Of a stretch of DNA of 64,000 nucleotides, positions 13,053 to 46,125 are shown in pieces; within the stretch, counting starts at the first letter, position 1, and each line of letters starts with the position of its first letter. The translations under genes were made by a program, and so were the position numbers. This DNA comes from Alphaproteobacteria bacterium (GTDB taxonomy: Bacteria; Pseudomonadota; Alphaproteobacteria; Thalassobaculales; Thalassobaculaceae). Location of the stretch: positions 1-64,000 of the forward strand of contig JANSYS010000018.1 of the NCBI GenBank assembly GCA_024742275.1. Reading direction: 5' to 3'. The notes beneath the pieces were generated by a model, which made no database searches, was not told the origin of the DNA, and saw only the letters and a list, made by a program, of their open reading frames with translations.

Positions 13053-14061
13053 GGTAGGGCTCTGCCATTGCGACGAGAATGCGCCGGTGGCCGGAGTAGG
13101 GCTGCCGTCCGTGGGCTACCGACATGTTGTCGACCAGGAGGATATCGCCGTTCTGCCATGCGAAGCGGCGCTCCTCTGCATGGTAGGCGTCCAGAATCTC
13201 CCGAACGGTTTCGGTCGCTATCTCGGTGCCGTCTCCAAAGGCGGTCGCATATGGCATTCGCTCGGTTCCGAGTTCGGCTTCCAGAGCGTCGCGGTCCGGT
13301 CCGGCATAGCTGCTGACATGGAAGAACGCGGCGTGGTTGAACCAGACCGGCTCGCCCGACACAGGGTGCCGCCTGATTGCGGGCCTCGTCTGGCGGGTCG
13401 CGAGCCGGTCGTCCGCACCCCAGGCGAAGGCGATATCGTTGTCCTTGCAGAAGCTCTCGACGGCGGCTCTGTCGTCGGTCTGAAACACCTCCTGCCAAGG
13501 CAGACCGAATCCGTCGTTGAAGCGGCGGACCAACGTGAAGCCGCGGCGCTCGAAATCCTCGACCGTCTGCTGGGACAGCCTGCCGAGAACCCCGGCGATA
13601 TTGGCCAACGGCGTTTCGCCGCCGCTTTCCGCCGCCGTTTCGCAGGCGAAATACAGCTTCATCGGCCACGCGCGCCAATAGGTACCTTCGTTGTGCAACT
13701 CGATCCGGCGGTCCGCGGGGTAGGAGGTCGAGGTATAGAGCTTGTTCCCCAGGGACTCGCGCGGGGTCGTCCGATCCCGGTAGTCGAGCAGCGTGTTGTC
13801 GCTCGTCGCCGCCACGAAATCGGCGAGCTGTTCCGCCGACTGGCGATCGAAACCTCGGAACAGCAAGGCCTTGTGGCGCTCGAGGAGATCCTGGGCGAGG
13901 GGTTTCGCCATGGCGGCCCATCCGACGAGGTCCAGGCCGGAGACCTTCGGCGTCACGATTGCCGGCCACCATCCGCCATCGGCCATCGGACGGCAGTCGA
14001 TCAGATCCTCCGCTTCGGTGCTCACGGCCCTGCGTTTGACCGCTCCCGGAGTGATTTTCAT
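13045..14061 (-). CDS. SyrP/TauD-type Fe(II)/2-oxoglutarate-dependent hydroxylase
   Basis: This 338-residue TauD-superfamily oxygenase has iron ligands visible as H123-N-E125 (HNEGTYW) and distal H317 (VAHGRQP), with a following Arg for 2-oxoglutarate (GHRR). HxE rather than HxD is normal in the SyrP and AsnO type enzymes that hydroxylate the beta-carbon of an amino acid, often while it is carrier-bound. The ATG at 14061 overlaps the PKS stop (ATGA); an ORF start further upstream is a shadow inside the PKS. Its stop lies inside the start of the NRPS with the inactive N-terminal domain, so the two are probably translated together and act on the same residue. A free amino acid substrate remains possible. 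Confidence 0.9.
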   Translation of the reverse strand: MKITPGAVKRRAVSTEAEDLIDCRPMADGGWWPAIVTPKVSGLDLVGWAAMAKPLAQDLLERHKALLFRGFDRQSAEQLADFVAATSDNTLLDYRDRTTPRESLGNKLYTSTSYPADRRIELHNEGTYWRAWPMKLYFACETAAESGGETPLANIAGVLGRLSQQTVEDFERRGFTLVRRFNDGFGLPWQEVFQTDDRAAVESFCKDNDIAFAWGADDRLATRQTRPAIRRHPVSGEPVWFNHAAFFHVSSYAGPDRDALEAELGTERMPYATAFGDGTEIATETVREILDAYHAEERRFAWQNGDILLVDNMSVAHGRQPYSGHRRILVAMAEPYHG

Positions 14062-17000
14062 GGCTCGGTCCCCTCTGTCCCGGTCCGCGCGCGCTTCGGC
14101 CGTCGGGCGGCGGCGAGCCGATCGCGCTGTCTGCCCTGGAACCGTTCGGCTCGTGCGGTCTCCCGTCTCATTCTGATCTCGGCACACGTCGCCGTCATCT
14201 CCGACATGCGGGTCTCTGGGTCGTTGACGCTGAGGGCCAGCACGGCCTCGAATGCCTCCGCCAGTGTCGACACCGTTTCAGGCCGGTAAGCGCGGCGCGC
14301 GAACTCGAGATGTCCGATAAGGCCGTCGCCGTCCGGCTCCAGCACCAGGGCGAGCGGAAATCGCGCCGGACGATTCTCTGGATGAATCACTTCGAGCGCC
14401 AGTGCATCGTCAAGTCGGCGCGGCGCGCTGTGGGTCAGCACAGTGAACCACACATGAAACGGCGGCGGCTCTGCAGGTCCCCGTCCGAGAGCCTCTAGAA
14501 CGTTCTCGAAAGGCGTTTCTCCATGGCCGTGGGCCTCGACCACCGTGCGCGCCGTCGCGTCGACCAGGGCCGCGAAACCGGTATCGTCCGGTACGGTGGT
14601 CCGGAGCACCGCTGGATTGACGAAGTAGCCGACAACCGTCTCCGCTGCCGGTTCCGTTCGTCCAGCCAGCGGGGTTCCGATCGTCAGATCCCGCGCGCCG
14701 CCGAGGCCATGGATTGCCGCCTCGAAGGCGGCGAGCAGCCAGACGAACGGTGTCGTTCCGCGTGTGGCGGCAGTGCTGCGGATCGCCGCGACCGTGTCCA
14801 GCGGAATCGTGAGGGTCACGGCTTCACCGTCGTAGTCGCCATCGGATCCGCCGGGGGCGTCGTATGCAAGCGGCGGCGACGACGGCAAATCGGCAAGTCT
14901 GCTACGCCAATAGGCGATGTCCTGGGCACGGTCCGGCCGTTCGGCTCGCGCCGCGCAGATATCGGCGAATTGGAGCGATGGAACGGAGGTGGGCGGCCTG
15001 CCTTTCAGGAAATCGCGGTAGAGCGTTCCGATATCCTCGAGCAGCAGTCCGATGGACCAGTCGTCGACAACGATGTGATGAACGGCGAGCAGGAGCGTAT
15101 GTCGGTTCGATCCGGTCCCCATGAGCTTCGCCCGCCATATAGGCCCTGCTTCCAGATCGAATGGCCGGCTGAAGAAGCTCTGCATGCGGGCGGCTTCATC
15201 CTCCACCGTATCCGCGACCTCGAGCGGTGGACCCGATCCCGGCGCGTCGACAATTTGCCGCGGCTGCCCGCCGACGGCGATTAACCGGGTGCGCAATGCC
15301 TCGTGCCGGTCGGACAATGCGGCAAGGGCGGCGGAGAGCGCGTCGCGGTCTAGGGCTCCTGTCAGCCTGTAGGCGGCGGTGACCGCGAAGTTTGATCTGT
15401 CCGTCGACATCTGCTCGGCGATCCAGATCCGCCGTTGCCCGGCAAGGACCGGCAACGCGGAGGATCGGTCCGCAATGCCGATGTCGGTGGGGGCTGCCTC
15501 GGCCCCTCGGCTCACCGTCTTCCGGAGCCCGGCAAGGGTCGGCGCGGCCAGGAAATCGGCCAGGCTGATCTCCACGCCGACCGAGCGGCGGACGCGGGAG
15601 AGCAGTTGCAGGGCCAGAAGGGACGATCCGCCGAGTTCGAAGAAGTTTTCGTTCGTCCCGGCGTCGTCCAGACCGAGCACCTCGTCCCAAAGGCGCTCCA
15701 GGGACGGCGGGGTCTGCCCAGGGACGGTATCCGCTCTAGCGATGGCGCCTTGCGCTTTCGACCGGGTCGCGGCGGCGCGCCATTTTTCCAAGCGGGGCGC
15801 GAACGGCGTCGCGGAGATCAGGATCTCCCCGCGCAGCCCGTCGAGGACGGCGGTCAATAGGCGGCTGAATGCCCGAAGCGCATCGTCGCGACTCAGGTCT
15901 TGGTCATCCGGAGGCCCGTCTGTCTTGGCAACCGCGTCCAAGGCGACGCTCAGCCATGGATGGCCGCGCCGAACTTGATCGGCGGCGATGGCATCAAGCA
16001 CCGCGTTGGCCCCGGCATAGGCGCCGTAGCCGATCCCGCCGAGCCAGGTAGAGATCGACGATACGAGAAGGCAGAAATCGAGATCGACCCCAGCCAACCC
16101 CTCGACGAGCGCCTTTGTCCCGTCGATTTTTGCGGCGGCGTGGACGGCGGCAGTACGTTTCAGATCGCCGGAAAGCGGCCCGAAGCCTGACGGATCGAGC
16201 GTGCCGGCGGCATGGATGACGCAGGCGATTCGCCCATGCCGCTCCATGATCAGTCGCAGCGCCGCCGCGAGCGAACCGCTGTCGCCGACGTCGCCGGTCA
16301 GGTGATGGATGCGTCCGCCGCCCTCGCCCTGCGGTCCGCCTGATCGAGACAGGAGGTAGATGTCGACCGGTGCGTCGGCGGTATGCAGGTCGACGGCGTC
16401 GGCGAAGAGGCGGCCAACGCGGCCGTGGCCCCCGGTAATCAGAACAGGTCCGTCGATACGCGGCGAGCGGCCTCCGCAAGCTGCCAGTGTCTCCACCGAT
16501 GGCAGCCAGCGTCTCCCCGTCCGGTAGGCGACAATGGGATCGCGGTCGACGGTTGCGAGGTCGTCGGCGAGAATCTCGGTCGCCGTTCTGGGGTCGTCAC
16601 AGTCAGCCAGAAGACAGGTCGTCGCCGGGTTCTCGAGCGGCAAGCAACGAAGGGCGCCGATGGCCGGTGCCGCCTCGGCTGCAAGCGTTTCGGTCCCGGT
16701 CACGTCGAACAACCCGGTTGCCAGCCATGCGACCGTCAACGGAGTATCCGATTGGATCTCGTCCAGTCTCCTGGCGATCGCCGCGATCATTCCGGCGGTG
16801 CCGGTATCCGAGGCGGTCAGAACGAGCCCGCGGACATCCGGCTCGATCCGTGTCGGTAAATCGTCGCGCGGCACAGGCAGGGCGACGGCGCCCCGTCGCT
16901 CGATTGCAGCGGTGATGGCCGATGCGAGATCCCCGCCGGCGTCCTCGACCAACCAGGTCCCTTCGAGCCGGTCGTGTTTGGAGCGGATGCCACCGACCCG

Positions 17001-19637
17001 CCGCCAGGATGGCACAAGCAGTTCCGGCAGCTCGGGTTCAGGCTGGGCCGATGGTGCCGGGTCGAGCCAATGTCGGGTCGGCGCAAAGGGATACGGCGGC
17101 AGATCTGCTACCATGGCCGTGCCGGGCGGGTCGAGCGGCGTCCAGTCGATATCCGCGCCGGCGACCCACACCTCACCCAGCGTTTCCAGGAGCACGTCGA
17201 CGTCTTCGCGTCGGTCTAGCGGATGACGCATCAACGCCATCGTGACGGTTCCCTCGGTCATCGACGGATTCTGGCGGGCGAGTGTGGACAGAACTCGCCC
17301 CGGGCCGGATTCGATCAGGATCGGATCGGGATAACGCAGCGCGGCGCCGATGCCTTCGGCAAACCGCACCGGAGCCCGAAGCTGTCGGCACCAATAGTCG
17401 GGGTCCGTGGCCTCGGTATCGGTAAGAAGCGCGCCGGTGAGGTTGGACAGGATCGGAACCTGAGGCGGCAGCAAGTCGATCCCGGCGACGGCCTCGCGGA
17501 ACGCATCCAGCATCGGCTCCATCATGGCCGAATGAAAAGCGTGCGAGGTCGAAAGGGGATGACACTCGATCCCGGCGGCCCGGAGCGCGGCTTCGGCACG
17601 GTCGACGGCTTCGACAGGTCCCGAGACGACAGTGCTCTCCGGCGCGTTGAGCGCCGCCACGTCTACGGCTTCTGCGAGATGGAGCGAGACGGTGTCCTGA
17701 TCGGCGGCGGCCGCGAGCATCCGGCCGCGGGGCAACGCCTGCATGAGAGCGCCGCGGCGGGCGACCAGCCGGAGACCGTCGGCAAATCCAAAGACTCCCG
17801 CGACACAGGCCGCAGCATATTCGCCGAGACTGTGACCGATCAGGATATCGGGCGCGATGCCGAAGTGGTGCAGGAGGCGAGCGCAGGCCACATCGGTCGC
17901 GAAGACGAGCGGCTGCGTCAGCGCGGTTTGTGCCAAGTCGTCGTCATCGCCCTCGAACAGGATGGATCGAAGATCGCGGCCGAGCAGCGGAAGAAGTTCG
18001 GCGGCGGCATCGTCGATGGTCTCGCGGTAGACCGCGAACGCGTCGTAAAGACCGCGGCCCATGGCCGGGTACTGCGCACCCTGTCCGGGCATCAAAAGGA
18101 TCCGGATCGGCGTCCCTGCCGTCAACATTCGCCGTTTCAACGGTGCGGCGCCGGAGAACGGGGCTTCCTCCCCCGCAGCGGTTTGGAAGGCACGGGCCGG
18201 CAGATCGATCTCGGTTCGCCGCAGGGTGTATGCCACGTCGTCGAGCTCCTGCTCGGTCCGTGGGACGATCCCCTTCAGGCTCTCCATACGGCGATCCAGG
18301 GCCGTGGTGTCGGCGGCCGCGGCCAGGAAGAGACGCCGGCCCTTTCTGCGTGCGGGATGCGGCCGGGACGGCGGCCCCTCGATGACGACGTGGGCATTGC
18401 TGCCGCCGACGCCGAACGAGCTGATACCGGCCAGTCCGGATGGTGCCAACGGCAGCGATGCGCGGCTTACGGTGAAGCCTCTCTCGGTCAGCCTCAGAGC
18501 CGGGTTTGGGGCGTCGAAGTTGATCTGGGGCGGCAGGACTCCGTTCCGGAGCGCGAGCGCCGCTTTGATGAGGCCGGCAGCGCCTGCAACCGTATCCGTA
18601 TGGCCGATATTCGCCTTGACCGACCCGATCGGGCATGCCGCGGTGCGACCTGATCCCGAGAATACCGCGCCGAGAGCGCCGATCTCGACGGCGTCGCCAA
18701 GCGCGGTCCCTGTGCCATGAGCCTCGATGAAGGACAGATCGCCTAGATCGACCCCGGCTACCGCCATGGCTTCAGCGACGACGCCGATCTGTCCGGCCTC
18801 GCTCGGTGCGGTGAAGCCGAGCTTGTCGGCCCCATCGTTGTTGACCGCCGCTCCCCTGATCACAGCATGGATCCGGTCCCCGTCGGCAAGCGCGTCCTCG
18901 AGGCGACGCAGAGCCAGCACCGCCGCACCGTCGCTGAACACGGTACCCGCGGCGCGGTCGTCGAACGGGCGGCAATGCCCGTCCGGCGCTTCGATGCCGT
19001 CCGGCTCGTACAGATATCCGGATCGGCGGGGCAGGCGGAGCGAGCAGGCGCCCGCGAGGGCGAGGTCGCTCTCGCCGAGCATCAGGTTCTGGCAGGCAAG
19101 GTGAATGCCGACCAACGCGGTAGAGCAGGCAGTCTGAACCGTAACGGCCGCTCCCTTCAGGCCGAGCTTGTAGGCGATACGCGTGGCGGCGAAGTCCTTG
19201 TCGTTGGCAACGTAGGACAGAAACTGACGGCCCGGATCGCCGGCCGCATGCTCAATGTCGCGCCAGAAATGTGCGTTTGCGCCTGTGCCGGCATAGACGC
19301 TGACCGGACCCGGAAGACGCGCCGGAGAGTATCCGGCGTCCGCGAGCGCGTGATACGCGGTTTCCAGCAGGAGTCTTTGCTGCGGGTCGATCCGTTGCGC
19401 CTCTGCCGGCGTGACGTTGAAGAACGCCGCATCGAATTTGTCGGCGTCGGCGAGGAAACCGGCGACGGGCACGTATGCAGGATCGTCAAGAATGCGCCTG
19501 GGCACGCCGTCTGCGGCCATCTCGTCGCGCCCAAATCGGGTAAGGCACTCTTCGCCAGCCAAAAGGCGATGCCAGAACGTTCGGAAATCGGGGCATCCCG
19601 GCAAGCGGCAAGCCATGCCGACGATCGCGACCTCCAT
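14058..19637 (-). CDS. Modular type I PKS fused to NRPS condensation domain: KS-AT-KR-ACP-C
   Basis: This protein has 1859 residues. Ketosynthase (1-420): TACSTAL with Cys171, HGTGTALGD, NIGHTD. Acyltransferase (about 505-830): GHSLGE with Ser603 and an HAFHS motif near 697-701, which indicates malonyl-CoA. Ketoreductase (about 1060-1300): TGGHGRVG, LVSSIS and YGAYAGAN, so it should be active and leave a beta-hydroxyl. ACP: GGSSL with Ser1339. Terminal condensation domain (about 1385-1800): HHIVVDD at 1520, catalytic His kept. The trailing C domain supplies the condensation that the next NRPS cannot perform itself. ATG 19637 has GGAG six bases upstream. It is first in the reverse operon. Its AT is the only intact one in the window. 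Confidence 0.94.
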   Translation of the reverse strand: MEVAIVGMACRLPGCPDFRTFWHRLLAGEECLTRFGRDEMAADGVPRRILDDPAYVPVAGFLADADKFDAAFFNVTPAEAQRIDPQQRLLLETAYHALADAGYSPARLPGPVSVYAGTGANAHFWRDIEHAAGDPGRQFLSYVANDKDFAATRIAYKLGLKGAAVTVQTACSTALVGIHLACQNLMLGESDLALAGACSLRLPRRSGYLYEPDGIEAPDGHCRPFDDRAAGTVFSDGAAVLALRRLEDALADGDRIHAVIRGAAVNNDGADKLGFTAPSEAGQIGVVAEAMAVAGVDLGDLSFIEAHGTGTALGDAVEIGALGAVFSGSGRTAACPIGSVKANIGHTDTVAGAAGLIKAALALRNGVLPPQINFDAPNPALRLTERGFTVSRASLPLAPSGLAGISSFGVGGSNAHVVIEGPPSRPHPARRKGRRLFLAAAADTTALDRRMESLKGIVPRTEQELDDVAYTLRRTEIDLPARAFQTAAGEEAPFSGAAPLKRRMLTAGTPIRILLMPGQGAQYPAMGRGLYDAFAVYRETIDDAAAELLPLLGRDLRSILFEGDDDDLAQTALTQPLVFATDVACARLLHHFGIAPDILIGHSLGEYAAACVAGVFGFADGLRLVARRGALMQALPRGRMLAAAADQDTVSLHLAEAVDVAALNAPESTVVSGPVEAVDRAEAALRAAGIECHPLSTSHAFHSAMMEPMLDAFREAVAGIDLLPPQVPILSNLTGALLTDTEATDPDYWCRQLRAPVRFAEGIGAALRYPDPILIESGPGRVLSTLARQNPSMTEGTVTMALMRHPLDRREDVDVLLETLGEVWVAGADIDWTPLDPPGTAMVADLPPYPFAPTRHWLDPAPSAQPEPELPELLVPSWRRVGGIRSKHDRLEGTWLVEDAGGDLASAITAAIERRGAVALPVPRDDLPTRIEPDVRGLVLTASDTGTAGMIAAIARRLDEIQSDTPLTVAWLATGLFDVTGTETLAAEAAPAIGALRCLPLENPATTCLLADCDDPRTATEILADDLATVDRDPIVAYRTGRRWLPSVETLAACGGRSPRIDGPVLITGGHGRVGRLFADAVDLHTADAPVDIYLLSRSGGPQGEGGGRIHHLTGDVGDSGSLAAALRLIMERHGRIACVIHAAGTLDPSGFGPLSGDLKRTAAVHAAAKIDGTKALVEGLAGVDLDFCLLVSSISTWLGGIGYGAYAGANAVLDAIAADQVRRGHPWLSVALDAVAKTDGPPDDQDLSRDDALRAFSRLLTAVLDGLRGEILISATPFAPRLEKWRAAATRSKAQGAIARADTVPGQTPPSLERLWDEVLGLDDAGTNENFFELGGSSLLALQLLSRVRRSVGVEISLADFLAAPTLAGLRKTVSRGAEAAPTDIGIADRSSALPVLAGQRRIWIAEQMSTDRSNFAVTAAYRLTGALDRDALSAALAALSDRHEALRTRLIAVGGQPRQIVDAPGSGPPLEVADTVEDEAARMQSFFSRPFDLEAGPIWRAKLMGTGSNRHTLLLAVHHIVVDDWSIGLLLEDIGTLYRDFLKGRPPTSVPSLQFADICAARAERPDRAQDIAYWRSRLADLPSSPPLAYDAPGGSDGDYDGEAVTLTIPLDTVAAIRSTAATRGTTPFVWLLAAFEAAIHGLGGARDLTIGTPLAGRTEPAAETVVGYFVNPAVLRTTVPDDTGFAALVDATARTVVEAHGHGETPFENVLEALGRGPAEPPPFHVWFTVLTHSAPRRLDDALALEVIHPENRPARFPLALVLEPDGDGLIGHLEFARRAYRPETVSTLAEAFEAVLALSVNDPETRMSEMTATCAEIRMRRETARAERFQGRQRDRLAAARRPKRARTGTEGTEP

Positions 19638-19859
19638 GGATACTCCGCACGTTTCCTCGTCGGCGAAACTCTAGACGGTGGCATCGGGCCCGGCAACCGC
19701 TATGCCGGTTTACAAATCATGTAAAAGTAGAAAAACACGGTATTCAATTTGGTCGGGTGCGGATCGGCCGGCCACGCCCAGTTCACTTGCCTCGCATTGC
19801 GCCGATCACCCATACTCCGCTCGGCAATCGCCGGAGAACAGACCTGCAAGGGGCTAGGG
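19638..19859. promoter_or_regulatory. Divergent promoter region between the two NRPS/PKS operons, with an inverted repeat
   Basis: This 222-base gap separates the reverse PKS operon from the forward glycosyltransferase-NRPS operon and must drive at least the two of them. It contains an AT-rich core (19705-19755) unlike the surrounding GC-rich DNA. In that core lies a perfect inverted repeat TTTACA (19709-19714), spacer AATCA, TGTAAA (19720-19725). Its 17-base size is suited to a dimeric repressor or activator, but no regulator gene is seen in the cluster. Promoter boxes cannot be assigned with confidence. An AAGGGG ribosome binding site precedes the forward start at 19860. Confidence 0.6.
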
Positions 19860-25800: not shown

Positions 25801-26002
25801 AATTGCAGGAGGCGGACAGTCATTTGCCGCGATCCTTGGGGCTGCGGCTCGATCGGGAGGCGCGCGTGCAAAGGCTGCGCCTCGTGCTTTCCCGCTACGG
25901 CGCGTTGATGGAAGCGTGGCCGACTCTGATGGCGTCGGCGGCGGCGCTGCGGTCGTCCGGCGACGGTCTGGCGCCTGCGCTCGTCGCCGAACCGGTGGCG
26001 CA

Positions 26003-26006
<4 letters not shown>
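19860..26006 (+). CDS. Glycosyltransferase-NRPS(C-A-T)-glycosyltransferase-like fusion protein
   Basis: This protein has 2048 residues. Residues 1-410 are a GT-B glycosyltransferase of the GT4 type (N-terminal HGGANRSNKALAEAL, C-terminal SLWFESFGMAAVDSMLRG). A condensation domain (about 445-885) has HHIATDA at 575. An adenylation domain (about 897-1395) has LYTSGSTGEPKG and code residues read as D-A-N-I-I-T-D-V-I-K, which I cannot assign. A thiolation domain has LGGHSL with Ser1442. After an acidic IEGAD repeat linker (1497-1516), residues about 1545-2045 resemble a GT-A/GT2 fold: a PSSNRPDILAGCLTSY opening, YGVNRNALLLHNAG and DDD at 1676-1678. ATG 19860 follows AAGGGG and starts the first glycosyltransferase strand exactly; longer readings are rejected. 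The next NRPS starts within its stop (GTGA). Transferases fused at both ends of an NRPS module are rare in my knowledge. Confidence 0.9.
24348..24407 (+). repeat. Four tandem 15-base repeats encoding an IEGAD/E linker
   Basis: Four in-frame 15-base units (24348, 24363, 24378, 24393) encode IEGAE, IEGAD, IEGAD, IEGAD and are followed by IEE. Units differ by only one or two bases, so the array is recent and may vary in copy number between strains. It lies between the thiolation domain and the C-terminal transferase-like domain of the fusion protein, and extends an already acidic stretch (EGEEEDLERLLSEIEGAE). It is probably a flexible or helical spacer between the carrier and the last domain. 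Confidence 0.93.
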
Positions 26007-35044: not shown

Positions 35045-35776
35045 TCATGGCAGCGTGTCGAATGACCACGATCTAAGGTCTATCGGCCCCAACGATCCAG
35101 CAGCACACGCGATCGCCGCGATCCAGCCGGGCCGAGGTTGGATCAGGCCAAATCGCCAGTCCGACGGGTCTCCCGTCGCCGTGGAGACGAGGCGCGGCGG
35201 GTCGGTCGTGATATCCACCGAGAAACTGTCGAGGGGATGCGACAGTCCTTCGCCCAGCGCCTTCACGAACGCCTCCTTGAGAACCCAGCAGCGGTAGAAC
35301 CGGTCGAGTGCATGCGCGTCGCCGGGATCGCCGATCGCGGCCAATTCATGCGGAGTGAAGAACCGGGCCGCGACGGCGGCGAAATCGTCGATCCGGCGGA
35401 CCCGTTCGATGTCGACGGCAAACCGCTCAACGGGTCCGAGGCCAATGAGGGCGAGGTCGTCGGAGTGGGAGCTTGAGAAGATCGGGGGCCCGCTTTCGGC
35501 GGTCAGCAAAAAGGGGCGGCCGAATGCCGGATCCGCGATGAACCGCAGTTGCTCCGGCGGGACGCCCGTCGCGCTCCCGAGGATTTGACGAAGGGCCGCG
35601 CGCCGGACGACAAAGCGATCTCGATCTCGCGGGAAGCGGTACCGTTCGGCTCTCTCGATTTCGTCGACGCTCAGCAGAGACTTGATTTGTTTTACAACTA
35701 TCGGTGATATATCAAGAGGTACGGTCCAGAGCGAGACGGGGGCGGGCCCAGAGTCTCTGGCAATGTTCGCCATCAT
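35045..35776 (-). CDS. Sfp-type 4'-phosphopantetheinyl transferase
   Basis: This 243-residue enzyme transfers the phosphopantetheine arm from CoA to carrier-domain serines. Visible motifs are FAVDIE (Mg2+ ligands Asp and Glu) and WVLKEAFVKALGEGL (the WxxKEAxxKaxG signature), with FPRDRDRFVVRRAALR near the N-terminus. It is expected to activate the carrier domains of the PKS and NRPS proteins in the cluster. Two ATG codons in a row (35776 and 35773) share a GGAA site; the first is used here. It leads the reverse operon with the AspH-type hydroxylase and enolase-type enzyme. Confidence 0.93.
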   Translation of the reverse strand: MMANIARDSGPAPVSLWTVPLDISPIVVKQIKSLLSVDEIERAERYRFPRDRDRFVVRRAALRQILGSATGVPPEQLRFIADPAFGRPFLLTAESGPPIFSSSHSDDLALIGLGPVERFAVDIERVRRIDDFAAVAARFFTPHELAAIGDPGDAHALDRFYRCWVLKEAFVKALGEGLSHPLDSFSVDITTDPPRLVSTATGDPSDWRFGLIQPRPGWIAAIACAAGSLGPIDLRSWSFDTLP

Positions 35777-36674: not shown

Positions 36675-36807
36675 CGGTCGGGATTCACACTGAGCCGAGT
36701 GCGGGGACCGGTCGGTCTGACCTGGGTGTGGCAGGTTTCGCGGCTTTCGGAGCCGGAGAAAGATTGCGATCGTGGCGGCGACCCGTGTCGGCAAACCCGG
36801 AGATCCG

Positions 36808-39800
36808 ATGACCGCCGTCGACTGGTTGAAGGCTGCGGCGACCCGATCGCCCGACCGAACGGCATTTGTCGATCTCGACGGCGATGGGGTGAGCGTCCTC
36901 TCTCTTACCTGGGGAGAGGTCGACCGCGGCGCGCGGCTGGTCGCGGGGTTTTTGAGACAACGGGTTCAGCCGGGCGATCGGGTGGTTCTGGCCTTTGCCT
37001 CCGGCGTATCGTTCGCGCAAGCGTTGTTTGGCTGCTTCTATGCCGGAGTGATCGCGGTTCCGTGCGCGCCGCCGGTGCGCGCCCGGGCGGGAGGGCGGGC
37101 CCTCGGGGTTCTCACGGATTGCGGCGCGGCCGTTATTCTGACCGCGGCGGATATGTGTGAGGCCGTCGCGCGGACCGTCACCGAAATGGAGCGGGCGCCC
37201 GACTGCTTCGCTCTCGAGGCGGTGCTGACAGCTGAGATGGCGACCGTGGCGCCGCTTCACGCGGCGAAACCGGGCGACGTCGCGTTGTTGCAGTACACGT
37301 CGGGATCGACCAGCCGCCCGCGCGGCGTGGCGATCACCCACGCCAACATCGTCGCCAATCTAACCATGCTTATAGACTGGTCCGACGCCGGGCCAGATTC
37401 GAACTTCCTGTCCTGGTTGCCGTTGTTCCACGACATGGGGCTGGTCGTCGGCTATCTGATGCCGCTCGCGTCCGGCGGGACCAGCCATCTGATTACCCCG
37501 GCCGCCTTCGCCAAGAAACCGTCCGTGTGGCTTTCCGCGGCATCGCGGTTTCGCGCGACCCACAGCGCAGCGCCTAATTTTGCGTTCGATCTCTGCGCTC
37601 GTCAGGTCGCCGATACCGAAGTCGCGGAACTGGATTTGTCCTCGTTTCACTGGGTGCTCAATGCGGCGGAAACGATCCGCCGGACGACCAACGACGCGTT
37701 TCTGGCGCGCTACGAGCCCCTGGGTTTCAGACCGGGTGCGTTGGCGCACTACTACGGCCTTGCCGAGGCTACCGTCTGCGTGACCGGACACAGGCCGGGC
37801 CGAGGACCGGTCTACCTTGCCGTTTCAGGCGCCGCGCTGGAGCGGCGCCGCGTGGCCGATGTCGATCCGTCTGATCCAGACGCGCGCTGGATCGCGGGGG
37901 TCGGCTGGACCGATGACGACTCCCGGGTCGTGGTCGTGGATCCGGATACGGGGGGCGAGGTCGGCGACGACCGGATCGGTGAGATCTGGGCCAGCAGCCC
38001 GAGTATGGCCCGTGGATACTGGAACAACCCCGATGCCACCGCCGCCACCTTCGGTTGGCGCGTAGAGGGAGACGAGCGGCCTTACTTCCGAACGGGCGAC
38101 CTTGGATTTCGGCGGGGCAACGAACTCTACATCACCGGCCGGCTGAAGGAGTTGATCATCGTCGGCGGGCGCAACGTGTACCCGGTGGATATCGAGGCGA
38201 CCGTTCAGGACCTGGACCCGATGCTGGTCCGCGATCGGGGGGCGGCGTTTCCGGTGGAACGGGACGGGACCGAGGCCGTAGCCGTTGTGCAGGAACTTCG
38301 GCGGGAGGGCGATGTCGACGTCGACGCCCTGCTGCGCCGGGCGGTTCGCGCCGTCGCGGATGCCCATGAGGTCGACGTTGCGGCCGTGGTGCTGATCCGG
38401 CAAGGCACGCTGCCTTTGACCAGCAGCGGCAAAGTGCAGCGCGGCGAGGCGCATCGCCGCCTTACGGCCGGAGAATTGAAGGAGATCGCTGCCTACCGCC
38501 GCAGCGAACGTTCGGAGCCGGCGGATCATGCAGCATCGAAGGCTCCCGTGATGCCGGGGGCGGTTGTCGCTGCCGTCTGCGAGGAGATCGCCGACGTCCT
38601 TGAACTGCGGGTCGAGGACATCGATCCGACCGAGCCGCTGACGAATTTCGGCTTTGGCTCGCTGGTCGCCGCCCGTCTGGCCGAGAGGCTCGGTGAGCGG
38701 TTCGGTCTCGAAGTCGAGCCCACACAATTCTACGACACGCCGACCGTCGAAGCCGTTTCCGAGTGGATCATGGAGCACGGGGGCATCGAGCGGTCCCAAG
38801 CCCGACAATCGGTCGAACCGTCGGTAGCGGAGGATGACGCCATCGCGATCGTCGGCATGGCCTGTCGCATGCCCGGAGCGTCGGATCTCGAGGCGTTCTG
38901 GGAGATGCTGCTGGCCGGCGACGAGGGGATCGGCGATCCGCCGGCTGACCGACGTGAGTTGGTGGAACAACTGGCCGCGTCACCCGATGTTCCGGCCCGA
39001 GCCGGATATATCGACGGGTGCGGCGGGTTCGATCCGTCTTTTTTCAAGATGGGGAAGCGAGAAGCGGACCTGCTGGATCCGCAGCACCGTCTCCTGCTGG
39101 AGACGACATGGCATGCCCTGGAACATGCGGGGCAGCGACCGGAGGATCTGCGCGCTGCACCGGTCGGCGTCTTCGTCGGCATCAGTACGTCGGACTACGG
39201 TGAACTGCTCTCGGATCAGGACAGCGCGGCGGACGCGCACTTTCCCACCGGCAACGCCCATAACATGGCCGCTAACCGGCTCTCATATCTGTTCGACTGG
39301 CGGGGGCCGAGCTTCGGCGTGGACACCGCCTGCTCGTCGTCGCTTGTCGCCACCCATCTGGCAGTGCAGAGCCTTCGACGGGGCGAATGCTCGATGGCGG
39401 TCGTCGGCGGCGTGAATCTGATCCTCACGGCCCGGCTGACCCGCGCCTTCCATGCGGCCGGAATGCTTTCCGCCGATGGGAGATGCAAGACCTTCGACGC
39501 CGCTGCCGATGGCTATGTGCGCGGCGAGGGATGCGGCGTGGTCGTGCTCAAACCGATGGCGGCGGCGCGGCGCGACGGCGACCGGATCATCGCGGCGATT
39601 CGGGGGAGCGCGGTCAATCAGGATGGTCTGAGCAACGGTATCACCGCGCCCAACGGTCCGGCGCAGCAGGCCGTGATCCGCTCGGCTCTGGCCGATGCCG
39701 GTATTGAGGCCAGCGCGGTCGGCTATGTCGAGACCCATGGAACCGGCACCGATCTCGGCGACCCGATTGAAGTTGGCGCGCTTGCCGAGGTGCTGTCCGA

Positions 39801-42800
39801 GCCACGGAAACGGCCGGTTCCGGTGTTGGGCGCGCTCAAGAGTAATATCGGCCACCTGGAAGCGGCGGCCGGTATCGCTGGACTGATTAAAGCGGCTCTC
39901 GTCGTGTCGCGCGGTGAGATCCCGCCGAACCGGAACTTCAGCGCGCCGAACCCGAAGATCGTTCGAGCGCTCGACCGGTTGAAGCCGGTGGCTCAGCGTC
40001 GGCGTTGGGGAGGTGACGGTCACCGCCGGGTCGCCGGAGTCAGCAGTTTCGGGTTTGGCGGCGCCAACGCCCATCTGGTGCTCGCCGATATGGAGAACGA
40101 TCCGGTCGCGGCCGATAGGTGGCCTGCCGAACTCTTGTGCCTGAGTGCGGGATCCGAGAGCGGCTTGCGTGCTCTCGCTGAGGCGTGGCGGCAGGCTTTC
40201 GCCGCGAAGCCGGACGTACCGGTTGCGGCCTGGGCAGTGGCGGCTGCTCGCCATCGGGGCCAACTCCCCTGGCGTCTCGCGCTCGCCGGACGGACGGTCG
40301 CAGAGTTCGACGCCACGTTGACCGACTGGATTGCCGGTCGGGATGGCGCAGTGGCCGGCAGGTCGCCCAAGCGCGGTCCGGCGAGGGTCGGATTGGCGCT
40401 CGTGTCTTCAAAGCCGCGTCAGTTGTCCGACGCGGGAACGCGCTCGTCCGCAGGGGACGCAACAGAATTTCCGGAGGTTGCCGATACTCTGAGAGAGCTT
40501 GGTCTCGCCGAGCGCGGCGGCGCTGGGGCGGCGCTTCGCTTCGCCCGGGCTTTGGGCCTGGTGCGTCTGGTGCAGGCTTGGGGGCTGAAACCATCGGCCG
40601 TTGCCGGCGTCGGGCCGGCGGCCTGGGCGGTGGCGGCGGCATCCGGCTTGGTGACGCCGCACGAAGCCATGCGGGCCGTGGTTGACGGCGACGGCGCTCC
40701 GCCGACCGGCCTGGGCACAGCCGGAATAGCGGTTGTCGCTGACGGGGGTGATCCAGCGGCGGCTCTGGTTCGGAGCGGGTGCGATCACATTGTCGAGCTG
40801 AACGAGTCGGCTGATGCCGCGTCCATCCTGACCGCAATCGGCAGGGCCTGGGTGTCCGGCTCGGGCATCGACCCGGCGCGCGGTGTTGAAGGGCGCCCGC
40901 AGGCCGCGGTGGACCTGCCGCTGATGCGTTTCGACAGACAGCTTTGCTGGTATGATGCGCCCGCCGACCAGACGGGCTGGCTGCGGTCCGCCTTGGGGGC
41001 GTTGGGCGCGGCTCAAGCGCCGATAGCCACGCTCGGACCGGCTCTGCGGCGGCTGACCGCGCTGGGCGAGGTGCGCCACGCGATCGCAACGCCGCCGCCG
41101 CCGCCTGCTGCGTCCGATATTCGAGCCGCGTTGACTGATCTGATCGCCGAGTTGCTCGGCCGGACTTCTGAGGAAATCGACGTCCATGAACGATTCGTCG
41201 AGATGGGGGCCGATTCGATCGTGCTCACGAGGGCGTTGCGGCGCTTCGAGGAGCGCTTCGGGGTTAAGCTGACCGTTCGGCAACTGTTCGAGACGACACC
41301 CGATATCGCCAGCCTGGCCGATCATCTTGCCGATGGCTCCGGAATCGGTCTGAAAGGAACAGGGGCCGATCCGTCGTCGGCAGCGGACGCGGAGCGGGCG
41401 GCGACCGGGGCTCCGCCGTCGGACGATCTGCGCGCCTTGCTGAGGCGCACCGACGAGACCATGCGGGCCTTGATCGCCCAGCAGGAGGAACTCCGTCGGC
41501 GGATCGAGGGCGGGCCGATGCCCGTGGCGAAACCGGTTGGCGCCGCGGCGCCGACCGCGAGCGCGTTGCCGCTGTGGCGGCCGGCGAAGGACCCGGTGGC
41601 GACCGAGGAACGGAATCGTGCGCTCGATCGCCTCGTCCCCCGCTACACGAAGATGACGGCCGGCTCCAAGCGGCTCGCTGCGGCGTTCCGCCTGCGGCTC
41701 TCGGACAATCGGGCCTCGGCCGGGTTCCGGTTCTCGACCAAGGAGATGGTGTATCCGCTTGTCGGCGAGCGAGCGAAGGGTGCGTATCTGTGGGACGTCG
41801 ACGGTAACCGCTATGTCGATATCTCGATGGGTTTCGGCGCCTATCTGTTCGGCCATGCGCCGGATTTCGTCGAGGCCGCGCTCCGCGAGGAGATCGACCG
41901 GGGGTTTGCTTTGGGTCCCCAGGCTCGGCTTGCGGGGGAAGTCGCGGATCTGGTGTGCGAACTGACCGGCTCCGAGCGCGTCGCCTTCGCCACGACCGGC
42001 ACCGAAGCGGTGATGACGGCACTGCGCCTTGCGCGGACCGTGACCGGAAGGCGCCGGATCGCGGTCTTCGAAGGCGCCTATCACGGTCATTTCGACGGTG
42101 TTCTGGCCGCGGCAGGGACCGACGGAGCGGTCCCCATGGCGCCCGGCGTGACAGAGTCCATGGTCGCCGATGTTCTGGTTCTGCCCTACGGCGACGATGC
42201 GGCGCTGGATGTGCTTCGTGATCAGGGAAGCGATCTTGCGGCAATCCTTGTCGAACCGGTGCAGAGCCGACGTCCCGGCCTTCAGCCCGCGCAGTTCTTG
42301 AAAGAATTGCGCGTGATCGCCGATGCCGCCGGCGCGGTCCTGATCTTCGATGAGATGATCACCGGGTTCCGGATCGGATCCGGCGGGGCGCAGGCTCATT
42401 TCGGCGTCCGAGCCGATCTCGCGACCTATGGCAAGATCTTGGGGGGCGGTCTGCCGATCGGCGCGATTGCCGGCGCGGCGCCACTCCTCGACGCGTTGGA
42501 TGGCGGCCCGTGGCGCTACGGTGACGATTCCTTTCCTGCCGCCGAAACGACCTTCTTCGCGGGCACGTACAACAAGCATCCGCTGGTAATGGCATCGGCG
42601 CGCGCCATGCTCCGAAGGATTGCCGACCTTGGAGACGGGCTCTACGCCGATCTCAACAACCGCTCCGCCGCGCTTGCGGAACGCCTGGAACGGGTGTTCG
42701 TCGATGCCGCGGCTGATCTTCGGATCGCCCGGTTCGGATCGCTCTTCCGGTTCAGCCACGGGGACAATGCCGACGCGTTCCTCTACGCCCTGCGGTCGCG

Positions 42801-45800
42801 TGGGGTGTTTGTGTGGGAAGGTCGGAACTGCTTCCTCTCGACGGCGCACGGCGATGCCGAGGTCGATGCCGTCGTCGATGCCGTGGCGGGCGCCCTGGAC
42901 GATGCCCGCGGCGGTCCGCAACGCCCGCATCCGCTTGAAGCTGCCCGGCCGTCGCCGGACGTCTTCCCGCTGAGCCGGGCGCAACGCCAGCTTTGCCTGC
43001 TTGGACAGCTTCGCCCAGAGGCTGGCCGCGCCTATCACGAGACGGTCGCGCTCGAGGTTCCGAGCGGACTGGATGCGGAGGCGTTGCGGGTTGCGATGAT
43101 AGCCGTGACGGAGCGGCATGCGGCGCTGCGCACCGTCCTCGATGTCGACGCGGGCGAACAGCGTGTTCTGCCGCTCGCGGTGACGGCCCCAAGCCTGAGC
43201 ATCCACCGACTTCGCCCCGGCGAGGACGAGCGGACGGCGATGATCGACGCTGCCGCTGCACCGTTTTCACCCGAGTCGCCGCCGGTGCGATTGCGGGCGA
43301 TCATGCGTCCCGACGGGTCGGCCCTGCTGCTTCTCGTTGCCCATCACGCCGTTGCCGACGGCTTGTCCCTCGGCATCGTGCTGTCGGATCTCGGAAAGGC
43401 GTATTCGGCACTCCGTGCCGGGTTGCCGGCGACTCTTCCCTCCGGCACCGGCTTCGCGTCCTTTTTGACCCGTCAGGCCGAGCGCGGCGATCTGCGGCGT
43501 CGGAACCTGGACGCCTGGACGCGGGCCTTGGGCACGCCGCCCATCCTTGACCTGCCGATCGATCGACCGCGTCCGGCCGACGCCAGCCATACGGGCGCTG
43601 CTGTCGGCGCGGATCTGCCGGCACCGTTGAACGGGGCGGTGGCGGTCGCCGCCCGTAGGCTCTCTGTGACGCCGGTGATGCTCTATTTCGGCGCCTACCT
43701 GTTGCTCCTGCATCGCTTGAGCGGACAGGGCGTGCTGGTCGCCGGGTTGCCAAGCGACTGCCGTATTGCCGAGGAGGATGCCTCGGTGGTGGGGGACTGC
43801 GCGCAGATGCTGCCGATCCTAAGCCGCCTTGCACCTCAGGACACGGTGGCCGGCTTCCTCACGGCGCTGCGCGGCACTATGCTCGATGCCTATGAGCGGC
43901 AGGATTTCGATTTCGCTGAGTTGCTCGACGTTCTCGATCTGCCATCCGACCGCTCGCGGACGCCCCTGATTTCCGCCGCCTTCAACCTTGATCAGACCGA
44001 CGCAGTTCCGGATGGGTTCGGCGCAGGGACACGCGTGCTACAGCCGCCGGTTAGCGCTGTGAAGTTCGAACTCTGGCTCAACATGACGCGGGTCGGCGAG
44101 CGGTTGAGCGCACGGCTGGAGTACGCGAGCGACCTGTTCGAGGAAGCGACGATCGACCGATGGCTTGGTCTCTACACCAACGTACTGGCGGCGATCACAG
44201 AGGACGCCGACCGCCGGGTTGCGGATCTGCCAGGTTGGCAACGCCCGCGGTCGTCCGAGTGCGTGACGGTAGCGGCGGATACGGTGCCCGCTTGGATCGC
44301 GTCTACGGCGGCCATGGCCGGCGACCGGGAGGCGATCGCCGCACCGGATGGAACGCTGTCCTACGCCGGCTTGGTTCGCCGCATGGACGGTATCGCCGGT
44401 GCTCTGGTTGCGCGGGGCGTCAGCACCGAGACACCGGTCGGGGTTTGCATGGAGCCTGGCCTCGCAATGGTGTCGGCATTGCTCGGCGTACTGAGGGCGG
44501 GCGGATGCTATGTCCCGCTGGAGCCGACCCAGCCGCAATCCCGGTTGGCGTCAATGGCAGCGTCGGCGCGGTGCGCTCTGGTGGTTACCGACGAGGCAAC
44601 GGCGGATCTCGCGTCGGGTCTCGGCGTGCCGGCGGTGTCGATTTCGGCACTCGACAGTGGAGGCGCCGTCAGCGTGTCGAAAGCGCCACACCCGGATCAG
44701 TTGGCGTATGTGATGCATACCTCGGGCTCGACCGGTGCCCCGAAATCCGTGGGTATCCCCCATCGTGCCCTGACCAATCTCCTTGCCTCGATGGCGTCGG
44801 CGCCGGGCCTTGAAGAAACCGATCGATTTGTTTCCGTCACGCCCCTGGGTTTCGACATCGCCGCCCTGGAACTTTTTCTCCCCCTCGTGACCGGCGCCCA
44901 CCTGCGCATCCTACCGAGCGACGCGCGGCGCGATCCTGAAGCCATCGGCGCCGCGATCGCGGAGACCGGAGCCACGGCAATGCAAGCGACTCCGGCAACC
45001 TGGCGCCTGCTCACGGACAGCGGCTGGCGGTCGCCGGCCGGGTTCAAGGTGCTTTGCGGCGGGGAAGCGCTGCCCGCGACCCTGGCGGAGCGTTTGATCG
45101 GCAGCGGCGCGGCGCTTTGGAACCTGTACGGACCGACCGAGACGACGATTTGGTCGATGCGCGCCGCGATCGCGACGCCGGCGTCGATCACGTTGGGCGA
45201 GCCGGTTGCGGGAACCGAAATATATGTCGTCGATGGTAACGTCGACCTGGTGCCGGACGGCGCCGTCGGAGAAATCGCGATCGGCGGCGTAGGGCTTGCG
45301 CGGGGCTATGGCGGACAACCCGGTCTCACAGCGGACCGTTTCCGACCGGACCCTTATTCCGGCGTCGCTGGCGCGCGGCTTTACCTGACTGGCGATCTTG
45401 CGCGGACGGCTCCGGATGGCGGACTGACCTATCTTGGACGGGGCGATTATCAGACCAAGATCCGCGGTCATCGGGTCGAGATCGGGGAAATTGAGGCCGC
45501 ATTGGAGCAGCTCCAGTCGGTCGACGCGGCGGCCGTCCTGATCCAAACCGGCCCGGATGGCGGCGCCGAACCGGTCGGTTTCATCGTCCCCACAGGCGGC
45601 ACGACGCCGTCGGTCGAAGACCTGCGCGCCGGATTGAGCCTGTCGTTGCCGCAGTACATGGTGCCGACGCGATTTCATCTGGTCGACGCATTGCCCTTAA
45701 ATGCCAACGGCAAGATCGACCGGAAGGCTTTGCCATCCTTGATCGGTCGTTCCGCGGCATCGGAGATTCCGTACGCGCCGCCGGCAGACGGTACCGAAAG

Positions 45801-46125
45801 CGTTGTCGCGGACGTGTGGAGCGAGGTGCTCGGTCTGGCGCGCGTCGGTGCCGATAGCGGATTTTTCGAGCTGGGGGGTACGTCGCTTGCGCTGGCGCGG
45901 GTTCATGACACGCTGCAACGGCGGCTCGGGCGGCGTTTTCCTTTGGCTTTGTGCGTGAGTCGACCGACGGTGCGGGCGCTGGCCGCCGCACTCGACGGAG
46001 AGGACCGACCGGCACATCGGACGGTGGCTGCCGTGGCCGCCGCAGAAGATCGGGCGCGGCGTCGGCGCGCGACCCTGGAAACCTTGAGACGCCCGTCGGA
46101 CGGGCCGAAAGAAGCGGAGGGCTAG
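36808..46125 (+). CDS. Starter megasynthase FAAL-ACP-KS-(inactive AT)-ACP-aminotransferase-C-A(Gly)-T
   Basis: This protein has 3105 residues. Fatty acyl-AMP ligase (1-567): LQYTSGSTSRPRG, WLPLFHDMGLV. ACP1: Ser618 in GFGSL, with Gly replacing the usual Asp. KS (677-1095): Cys842, His977, His1016. A shrunken AT remnant (about 1095-1388) has GVGPAAW at 1267-1273 where GHSxGE should be. ACP2: Ser1470. Class III aminotransferase (about 1598-2027): PLP Lys1876 in YGKILGGG. C: HHAVADG at 2179-2185. A: code D-I-L-Q-L-G-L-I-W-K, which I recall as glycine. T: Ser3026. This is the iturin A/mycosubtilin starter order: fatty acid activation, one malonate extension, beta-transamination, then the first amino acid. 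ATG 36808 follows GGAG and starts the FAAL fold; GTG 36772 would add 12 residues. Confidence 0.93.
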   Translation: MTAVDWLKAAATRSPDRTAFVDLDGDGVSVLSLTWGEVDRGARLVAGFLRQRVQPGDRVVLAFASGVSFAQALFGCFYAGVIAVPCAPPVRARAGGRALGVLTDCGAAVILTAADMCEAVARTVTEMERAPDCFALEAVLTAEMATVAPLHAAKPGDVALLQYTSGSTSRPRGVAITHANIVANLTMLIDWSDAGPDSNFLSWLPLFHDMGLVVGYLMPLASGGTSHLITPAAFAKKPSVWLSAASRFRATHSAAPNFAFDLCARQVADTEVAELDLSSFHWVLNAAETIRRTTNDAFLARYEPLGFRPGALAHYYGLAEATVCVTGHRPGRGPVYLAVSGAALERRRVADVDPSDPDARWIAGVGWTDDDSRVVVVDPDTGGEVGDDRIGEIWASSPSMARGYWNNPDATAATFGWRVEGDERPYFRTGDLGFRRGNELYITGRLKELIIVGGRNVYPVDIEATVQDLDPMLVRDRGAAFPVERDGTEAVAVVQELRREGDVDVDALLRRAVRAVADAHEVDVAAVVLIRQGTLPLTSSGKVQRGEAHRRLTAGELKEIAAYRRSERSEPADHAASKAPVMPGAVVAAVCEEIADVLELRVEDIDPTEPLTNFGFGSLVAARLAERLGERFGLEVEPTQFYDTPTVEAVSEWIMEHGGIERSQARQSVEPSVAEDDAIAIVGMACRMPGASDLEAFWEMLLAGDEGIGDPPADRRELVEQLAASPDVPARAGYIDGCGGFDPSFFKMGKREADLLDPQHRLLLETTWHALEHAGQRPEDLRAAPVGVFVGISTSDYGELLSDQDSAADAHFPTGNAHNMAANRLSYLFDWRGPSFGVDTACSSSLVATHLAVQSLRRGECSMAVVGGVNLILTARLTRAFHAAGMLSADGRCKTFDAAADGYVRGEGCGVVVLKPMAAARRDGDRIIAAIRGSAVNQDGLSNGITAPNGPAQQAVIRSALADAGIEASAVGYVETHGTGTDLGDPIEVGALAEVLSEPRKRPVPVLGALKSNIGHLEAAAGIAGLIKAALVVSRGEIPPNRNFSAPNPKIVRALDRLKPVAQRRRWGGDGHRRVAGVSSFGFGGANAHLVLADMENDPVAADRWPAELLCLSAGSESGLRALAEAWRQAFAAKPDVPVAAWAVAAARHRGQLPWRLALAGRTVAEFDATLTDWIAGRDGAVAGRSPKRGPARVGLALVSSKPRQLSDAGTRSSAGDATEFPEVADTLRELGLAERGGAGAALRFARALGLVRLVQAWGLKPSAVAGVGPAAWAVAAASGLVTPHEAMRAVVDGDGAPPTGLGTAGIAVVADGGDPAAALVRSGCDHIVELNESADAASILTAIGRAWVSGSGIDPARGVEGRPQAAVDLPLMRFDRQLCWYDAPADQTGWLRSALGALGAAQAPIATLGPALRRLTALGEVRHAIATPPPPPAASDIRAALTDLIAELLGRTSEEIDVHERFVEMGADSIVLTRALRRFEERFGVKLTVRQLFETTPDIASLADHLADGSGIGLKGTGADPSSAADAERAATGAPPSDDLRALLRRTDETMRALIAQQEELRRRIEGGPMPVAKPVGAAAPTASALPLWRPAKDPVATEERNRALDRLVPRYTKMTAGSKRLAAAFRLRLSDNRASAGFRFSTKEMVYPLVGERAKGAYLWDVDGNRYVDISMGFGAYLFGHAPDFVEAALREEIDRGFALGPQARLAGEVADLVCELTGSERVAFATTGTEAVMTALRLARTVTGRRRIAVFEGAYHGHFDGVLAAAGTDGAVPMAPGVTESMVADVLVLPYGDDAALDVLRDQGSDLAAILVEPVQSRRPGLQPAQFLKELRVIADAAGAVLIFDEMITGFRIGSGGAQAHFGVRADLATYGKILGGGLPIGAIAGAAPLLDALDGGPWRYGDDSFPAAETTFFAGTYNKHPLVMASARAMLRRIADLGDGLYADLNNRSAALAERLERVFVDAAADLRIARFGSLFRFSHGDNADAFLYALRSRGVFVWEGRNCFLSTAHGDAEVDAVVDAVAGALDDARGGPQRPHPLEAARPSPDVFPLSRAQRQLCLLGQLRPEAGRAYHETVALEVPSGLDAEALRVAMIAVTERHAALRTVLDVDAGEQRVLPLAVTAPSLSIHRLRPGEDERTAMIDAAAAPFSPESPPVRLRAIMRPDGSALLLLVAHHAVADGLSLGIVLSDLGKAYSALRAGLPATLPSGTGFASFLTRQAERGDLRRRNLDAWTRALGTPPILDLPIDRPRPADASHTGAAVGADLPAPLNGAVAVAARRLSVTPVMLYFGAYLLLLHRLSGQGVLVAGLPSDCRIAEEDASVVGDCAQMLPILSRLAPQDTVAGFLTALRGTMLDAYERQDFDFAELLDVLDLPSDRSRTPLISAAFNLDQTDAVPDGFGAGTRVLQPPVSAVKFELWLNMTRVGERLSARLEYASDLFEEATIDRWLGLYTNVLAAITEDADRRVADLPGWQRPRSSECVTVAADTVPAWIASTAAMAGDREAIAAPDGTLSYAGLVRRMDGIAGALVARGVSTETPVGVCMEPGLAMVSALLGVLRAGGCYVPLEPTQPQSRLASMAASARCALVVTDEATADLASGLGVPAVSISALDSGGAVSVSKAPHPDQLAYVMHTSGSTGAPKSVGIPHRALTNLLASMASAPGLEETDRFVSVTPLGFDIAALELFLPLVTGAHLRILPSDARRDPEAIGAAIAETGATAMQATPATWRLLTDSGWRSPAGFKVLCGGEALPATLAERLIGSGAALWNLYGPTETTIWSMRAAIATPASITLGEPVAGTEIYVVDGNVDLVPDGAVGEIAIGGVGLARGYGGQPGLTADRFRPDPYSGVAGARLYLTGDLARTAPDGGLTYLGRGDYQTKIRGHRVEIGEIEAALEQLQSVDAAAVLIQTGPDGGAEPVGFIVPTGGTTPSVEDLRAGLSLSLPQYMVPTRFHLVDALPLNANGKIDRKALPSLIGRSAASEIPYAPPADGTESVVADVWSEVLGLARVGADSGFFELGGTSLALARVHDTLQRRLGRRFPLALCVSRPTVRALAAALDGEDRPAHRTVAAVAAAEDRARRRRATLETLRRPSDGPKEAEG

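Follow-up and report, generated by a model that had tools for sequence, protein, structure and literature searches.

The window, by which we mean the whole 64,000-nucleotide stretch of DNA analysed here, contains a lipopeptide NRPS/PKS cluster. Besides a starter megasynthase gene, the cluster carries a sister PKS, further NRPS genes, a PPTase, glycosyltransferases, a TauD-type oxygenase and two ABC exporters (Table 1). Rfam and tRNA scans of the whole window found nothing. The megasynthase gene has a GTG start at 36772, and an alternative start is Met 13 at 36808. In its product, Pfam profiles identified AMP-binding (FAAL), ACP, ketosynthase (KS), KS C-terminal extension, ACP, class-III aminotransferase (AMT), C, A and PCP domains. 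The domain profiles thus follow the MycA-type order FAAL-ACP-KS-(AT)-ACP-AMT-C-A-PCP, and the protein is a lipopeptide-making starter of the mycosubtilin/iturin (MycA) type. The KS, ACP and aminotransferase motifs are all present, and what lies in the place of the acyltransferase (AT) is the subject of the following analysis.

Table 1. Coordinates of the starter megasynthase, its parts and the related features (positions refer to the window unless a locus is named)
Feature	Position	Strand	Residues	Remarks
Starter megasynthase gene	36772..46125	+		3117 aa, FAAL-ACP1-KS-(AT remnant)-ACP2-aminotransferase-C-A-PCP
Ketosynthase	38836..39939	+	689-1056	TACSSS, ETHGTGT and KSNIGHL (Cys-His-His motifs) present
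KS-AT linker / flanking subdomain	39946..40317	+	1059-1182	conserved, 66% identity to G010
Collapsed AT core	40375..40806	+	~1202-1345	
Former nucleophile elbow	40606..40626	+	1279-1285	GVGPAAW, replaces GHSxGE
Post-AT linker	40807..40959	+	1346-1396	ends LPLMRFDRQLCW, counterpart of LPTYPFx5W
Segment between post-AT linker and ACP2	40978..41085	+	1403-1438	36 aa
ACP2	41128..41328	+	1453-1519	GADSI motif
Embedded class-III aminotransferase	41749..42816	+	1660-2015	motif YGKILGGG
4'-Phosphopantetheinyl transferase	35045..35776	-		
Sister PKS	14058..19637	-		KS-AT-KR-ACP-C
Sister PKS intact AT	17337..18092	-		GHSLGE, HAFHS; candidate trans-acting partner
Burkholderia arboris collapsed AT	L162:5049-5525	-		one of the SSAGDG/GHGIGE pair
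Burkholderia arboris collapsed AT	L131:6040-6693	+		one of the SSAGDG/GHGIGE pair

Homology and predicted structure of the AT remnant

A previous sequence-only reading had described a shrunken AT-like region after the KS at 40090-40970. We found this region to be real; it corresponds to residues 1107-1400 of the 3117-aa ORF and contains the peptides quoted at the time. The motif GVGPAAW was also present, although residues 1267-1273, as it was then numbered, imply a start at Met 13, and the count from the GTG gives 1279-1285. A custom AT-region profile was built from 39 intact MycA-type relatives, and it matched the KS-AT linker and the post-AT tail that had been proposed on either side of the remnant at hmm 2-144 (91.7 bits) and 455-621 (95.2 bits), respectively.

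Pfam Acyl_transf_1 at its gathering score gave no match in the whole starter protein or in the remnant segment, and the call would be "no AT" because Pfam scores alone miss the remnant. With the custom profile, the middle of the remnant taken alone showed a weak match around GHSxGE (3.2 bits, E 0.015, hmm 228-274), and the remnant of the orthologue in genome G010 matched at the same place (9.0 bits, E 2.8e-4, hmm 232-266). Upon alignment of a window and G010 profile with the intact modules by hhalign, we obtained a score of 56.9 and a probability of 93.5%; the maximum was 25.5 among 200 column shuffles, and the reversed alignment scored 14.7. The same two-sequence profile was compared with all PDB chains and found AT domains at E 1.8e-5 in the nucleophile region. 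PKS/AT chains made up 12 of the 14 matches at E<=1, and the other two were a phosphatidylinositol synthase fusion. The single-sequence PDB search of the remnant revealed one match, the ZmaA AT, at E 0.42. The remnant descends from AT domains.

The core of the remnant keeps the first strand, the nucleophile helix-strand-helix and the last strand of an AT. The nucleophile Ser of GHSxG is absent, the site reading GVGPA in the window and GTGTA in G010. The alignment with intact ATs placed the HAFHS stretch, which we take to be that of the catalytic His, inside a deletion together with the ferredoxin-like subdomain. With both Ser and His lost, there is no functional AT within the starter module; the AT is catalytically dead, and therefore another enzyme must load the building block. 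An assembly error or frameshift was ruled out because the G010 orthologue has the same collapse in one open frame.

To place the remnant in three dimensions, AlphaFold2 was run on residues 689-1409 (KS, linker and remnant) with a 36-sequence alignment. The resulting model had a pLDDT of 86.9 and a pTM of 0.89, with block pLDDT values of 76-90 at model residues 561-700 and 40-66 at 521-560, and it may be pulled towards the AT fold by the intact ATs in the input alignments. VIA-align superposed about 645-690 residues of this model on KS-AT didomains (e.g., 7vee, Z 60.9, 650 aligned, 3.2 Å; 4mz0, Z 59.8, 679 aligned, 3.0 Å), compared with about 525-566 residues on trans-AT ketosynthases (e.g., 5erf, Z 60.0, 552 aligned, 2.4 Å). 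A structure lacking the AT fold, which the sequence-only reading had named as the outcome that would speak against it, was thus not what the prediction gave. The model of the remnant alone was of lower confidence (pLDDT 69.2); its best VIA-align rows were AT domains with a Z-score of 8.4, namely 2hg4 (162 aligned, 5.6 Å) and 8jpt (151 aligned, 3.4 Å). Foldseek on the remnant alone found nothing at E<=0.001 (best E 0.29), and its first 44 rows were AT-fold chains. The remnant model also aligned with the ClbK PKS module (PDB 8cjh) over 122 residues of chain region 518-676 at a Z-score of 6.8, which is below 8. Because of this alignment, the solved ClbK module, presumably AT-less, may hold a similar AT-like core.

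Ancestry and divergence of the module

Aminotransferase-anchored searches yielded 60 loci and 62 ORFs with the aminotransferase. We used the 50 ORFs in which the aminotransferase was accompanied by a KS in the same ORF that reached the end of the KS query. Of these, 49 were distinct; L057 and L118 represent one locus, which was counted once, and near-copies (Rhizobium, Pedobacter) were kept. L044 was counted as intact, as it is of full length though without the exact GHSxGE string. Seventeen further phylum loci were fetched and three were dropped (no KS in the ORF); the remaining 14, in which the KS is present there, all have an intact AT. Among the 64 distinct MycA-type modules, 54 have an intact AT, 8 have no AT and 2, those of the window and G010 only, have a remnant. 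The Burkholderia loci L131 and L162 stand outside these counts. Other families of the class have three AT-less MycA-type starters (G280:C232, G130:C7 and G375:C164, corresponding to L116, L120 and L121).

The distance from the KS end to the ACP2 start is 396 aa in the window and 373 aa in G010, compared with approximately 530-545 aa in the intact relatives L023, L035, L036 and L118 and 232-272 aa in the AT-less L024, L037, L116 and L120. In the AT-less relatives, matches to the custom profile were confined to the KS linker, ending near hmm 145, and to the part that starts at hmm 437-467, whereas the window and G010 add to their KS linker and post-AT matches the stretch around GHSxGE given above. 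The proposal of a decayed AT was therefore upheld by the AT homology in profile and PDB searches, by the loss of both catalytic residues and by a length between the cis-AT and AT-less states.

In the KS trees, the window and G010 formed a pair with support of 100/100. This pair sits with the intact-AT modules L035 and L044 in one tree (90/94) and with L044 alone in the other (95/84). The nearest KS relatives, which include Leptolyngbya L035, Pseudoalteromonas rubra L044, Microbulbifer L036 and others, have the same architecture; unlike the window, these cis-AT MycA-type modules have an intact AT, as do 54/64 modules overall. The window KS groups with cis-AT MycA-type KSs, in trees that were built without classical trans-AT reference KSs. 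The AT-less Bacillus modules formed a clade of their own, and a common origin with them is not favoured, as the KS tree separates them from the window and G010. The starred branches of the tree force at least three changes of the AT-less label. The starter module had also been called an intermediate between cis-AT and trans-AT enzymes; this description is apt for its sequence and ancestry but not for its function, since the module must by now rely on an AT other than its own.

The starter gene was found in 2/36 genomes of the order, the window's own and G010, which belongs to the same family but another genus. When 385 genomes of the class were searched with 39892-41100, the window alone was found at E<=1e-25, G010 evidently lying outside that sample. 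Two genomes filed in the window's genus (G001 and G005) are 1.5 Mb in size, compared with 4.7-5.6 Mb for the other listed members. The G010 orthologue is 79% identical to the window in the KS, 81% in the aminotransferase and 74% in ACP2, but only 45% over residues 1181-1400. Its remnant has a further 35-residue deletion in the N-terminal part, and its nucleophile site reads GTGTAG. The dN values between the two were 0.135 for the KS, 0.144 for the AMT, 0.190 for ACP2, 0.291 for the KS linker, 0.404 for the ACP2-AMT linker and 0.554 for the remnant. The remnant diverges faster than any other measured part of the protein, as expected under relaxed constraint. As synonymous sites are near saturation (dS 0.9-2.3), dN/dS is rough; its value for the remnant, 0.36, is less than 1 and no proof of neutrality. 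In the 36-aa segment that precedes ACP2, 27/36 positions are identical in G010, a conservation as strong as that of ACP2; the segment, possibly a docking helix, had no significant match in the other loci compared.

A similar truncation was observed in Burkholderia arboris MEC_B345 (NZ_CP101526.1), where a single assembly line has two collapsed ATs and one intact AT. By gene content and order the line looks occidiofungin-like, a name that we infer because the record is unannotated; its neighbours are a class-III aminotransferase, an epimerase and a thioesterase. In module 1, on the FAAL-ACP-KS protein, the KS-DH segment matches hmm 2-193, 226-271 and 456-514 with SSAGDG at the nucleophile site, and module 2, upstream of the KR, matches hmm 2-193, 228-277, 360-400 and 462-508 with GHGIGE. 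The third module has an intact AT (GHSVGE) before the ACP and aminotransferase. The four collapsed ATs of the window, G010 and B. arboris have a common core and all lack hmm 278-359; their joint profile finds PDB ATs at 2.1e-24, to which the GHGIGE member probably contributes most. B. arboris is thus like the window in having collapsed ATs of the same truncation beside one intact AT. It differs in that its modules carry DH/KR and that its KSs are not grouped with the window's in the best tree. Accordingly, a common origin of the window and module-1 collapses is not favoured by the best tree, although it is not rejected either (p-AU 0.173).

Proposed loading of ACP2 and possible role of the remnant

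The earlier reading had noted no free AT gene in the window, and we likewise found none among the ORFs scanned, including the dedicated AT gene beside the starter gene that is a trait of the iturin subgroup. The genome-wide search for a stand-alone AT, which had been suggested as a check, revealed FabD as the sole one in the draft. PF00698 had only two matches in the window's genome (G000), namely the sister PKS AT and a protein on contig 88 that is FabD (TIGR00128, 311.2 bits against a cut-off of 260.9). G000 is a draft that is 97.9% complete in 88 contigs, so a further AT gene could be missing. The same pair was found in G010, which has a stand-alone FabD-sized match and an orthologue of the sister PKS with 77% identity in the KS and about 61-62% in an intact AT (GHSLGE). 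If the line works and the draft is complete, ACP2 would therefore be loaded by one of these two.

We consider it very probable that the ancestor of the starter module was an ordinary MycA-type module with a cis-AT, that this AT lost its function and collapsed where it stood, and that ACP2 is loaded in trans. In the proposed sequence of steps, the FAAL would load a fatty acid onto ACP1 and the KS would take the fatty acyl. Malonyl would reach ACP2 in trans; the most likely donor is the housekeeping FabD and, failing that, the sister PKS AT. The KS would then condense the fatty acyl with malonyl, the aminotransferase would turn the beta-ketone into a beta-amine, and the C domain would transfer the resulting beta-amino acyl chain onto the first amino acid. 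Catalysis would not involve the remnant, which, if it is retained for any purpose, would fill the space from the KS linker to ACP2. Both the activity of the starter module and the identity of the loading enzyme are our inference.

FabD is favoured as the donor because there is precedent for it with AT-less NRPS-PKS modules and because MycA itself takes malonyl from a discrete enzyme. For mycosubtilin, the loading of MycA ACP2 with malonyl by the discrete transacylase FenF is described in PMC3039948. MycA and BamA (mycosubtilin and bacillomycin, with the discrete ATs FenF and BamD) have the same domain order as the window's starter, and in them, too, the module lacks a working AT. Unlike the window, BamA has no AT core (the profile jumps from hmm 142 to 437), a dedicated AT gene adjoins it, and the KSs lie in a separate clade. 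The loading of the AT-less NRPS-PKS BrnF (barnesin) by FabD of primary metabolism is reported in PMC13096860, where pseudotetraivprolide and detoxins are cited alongside barnesin for the loading of AT-less modules by FabD. BrnF thus resembles the window module in being AT-less and in its donor, for which FabD is the favoured candidate here; the available text of PMC13096860 does not mention an AT remnant.

Our weighting gives FabD roughly an even share of the probability, the sister AT a clearly smaller one and the rest to another donor or none. The suggestion that the intact AT of the sister PKS could serve in trans was accordingly kept as a possible one, with FabD at least as likely. According to this alternative, the sister malonyl AT would load ACP2, so that one AT would serve two modules. 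It is the only AT in the genome besides FabD, its orthologue has been kept intact in G010, and the B. arboris line likewise has two collapsed ATs beside one intact AT; its HAFHS motif, which goes with malonyl specificity, fits as well. However, modular cis-ATs usually prefer their own ACP, FabD has a published precedent for loading an AT-less module, and no docking feature was identified. The other AT-less genomes of the class could not separate the two donors, because G280 and G130 have a stand-alone FabD-sized AT but also carry a cis-AT elsewhere, and G375 has no FabD-sized PF00698 match, its matches being cis-ATs only.

Somewhat less likely still is that the remnant is a pseudo-AT, a selected and folded scaffold that positions the KS linker and post-AT linker or docks a trans-acting AT. 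Consistent with such a role are the predicted fold at model residues 561-700, the retention of core hmm ~226-277 with loss of hmm 278-359 in the window, G010 and both Burkholderia modules, and the strong conservation of the 36-aa segment. On the other hand, the remnant evolves faster than the ACP2-AMT linker, 35 of its residues are lost in G010, the AT-like core is wholly absent in 8/64 modules, and the model is less certain at residues 521-560. A broader form of this idea, which we regard as rather doubtful, is that lipopeptide starter-line ATs collapse repeatedly and independently to one mini-core, retained as a non-catalytic pseudo-AT that organises KS and ACP for a shared AT. The mini-core, on the same doubtful footing, would consist of the first strand, the nucleophile helix-strand-helix, the last strand and the post-AT linker. 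If this were true, the state between cis-AT and trans-AT would be an evolutionarily stable one and not a fleeting one.

It is quite improbable that the module is dead, with ACP2 never malonylated and the cluster decaying; the loss of its only cis-AT would suit this, but the KS, ACP2 and AMT have kept their motifs, and all three are conserved in the orthologue from another genus, whose frame is open throughout. An alanine-rich, unrelated linker that resembles an AT by chance would explain the missing Pfam AT match and the E of 0.015 for the window alone, but it has a negligible probability and was ruled out, as 0/200 shuffles came near the real hhalign score, the PDB profile matches reached 1.8e-5 and the collinear order has the correct flanks.

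We return to the collapse of a cis-AT in place. AT-less modules and trans-loading are well known, and truncated ATs have had earlier mention. PepC from the pepstatin cluster is described in PMC12081711 as a KS-AT-ACP protein with a "truncated AT domain", with cis-AT or AT-less versions in related clusters, and that paper uses the labels KS-AT-ACP and cis-AT for it as well; by this description, PepC and the remnant are alike in having a truncated AT. The literature searched, which includes only a minority of subscription journals, contained no account of a MycA-type module with a half-collapsed AT. As far as that literature shows, it is new to find the AT of a MycA-type module in mid-collapse, in two orthologues, with no trans-AT dedicated to it. 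The change from cis-AT to trans-AT has mostly been inferred from finished states. Since the window and G010 represent different stages of one collapse, and their nearest relatives have intact ATs, one can compare how much was lost and in what order, and use deletion to ask whether the remnant is needed. They offer a natural snapshot of an assembly line that loses a built-in part and becomes dependent on a shared one. Should FabD be the donor, the module would have passed to primary metabolism without gaining a trans-AT of its own.

Other genes of the cluster

Two further features of the NRPS genes were observed. At 19749-26006 (+), one open frame matches a glycosyltransferase of family 4 at residues 54-348 and then a C-A-PCP NRPS module. 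Either the two are fused, which would be unusual, or a separate upstream gene lies in frame with the module. At 8823-13052 and 5638-9579 (-), tandem Condensation-type domains meet at the frame junction (A-PCP-C, then C-A-PCP), and the first of them may be an epimerase.
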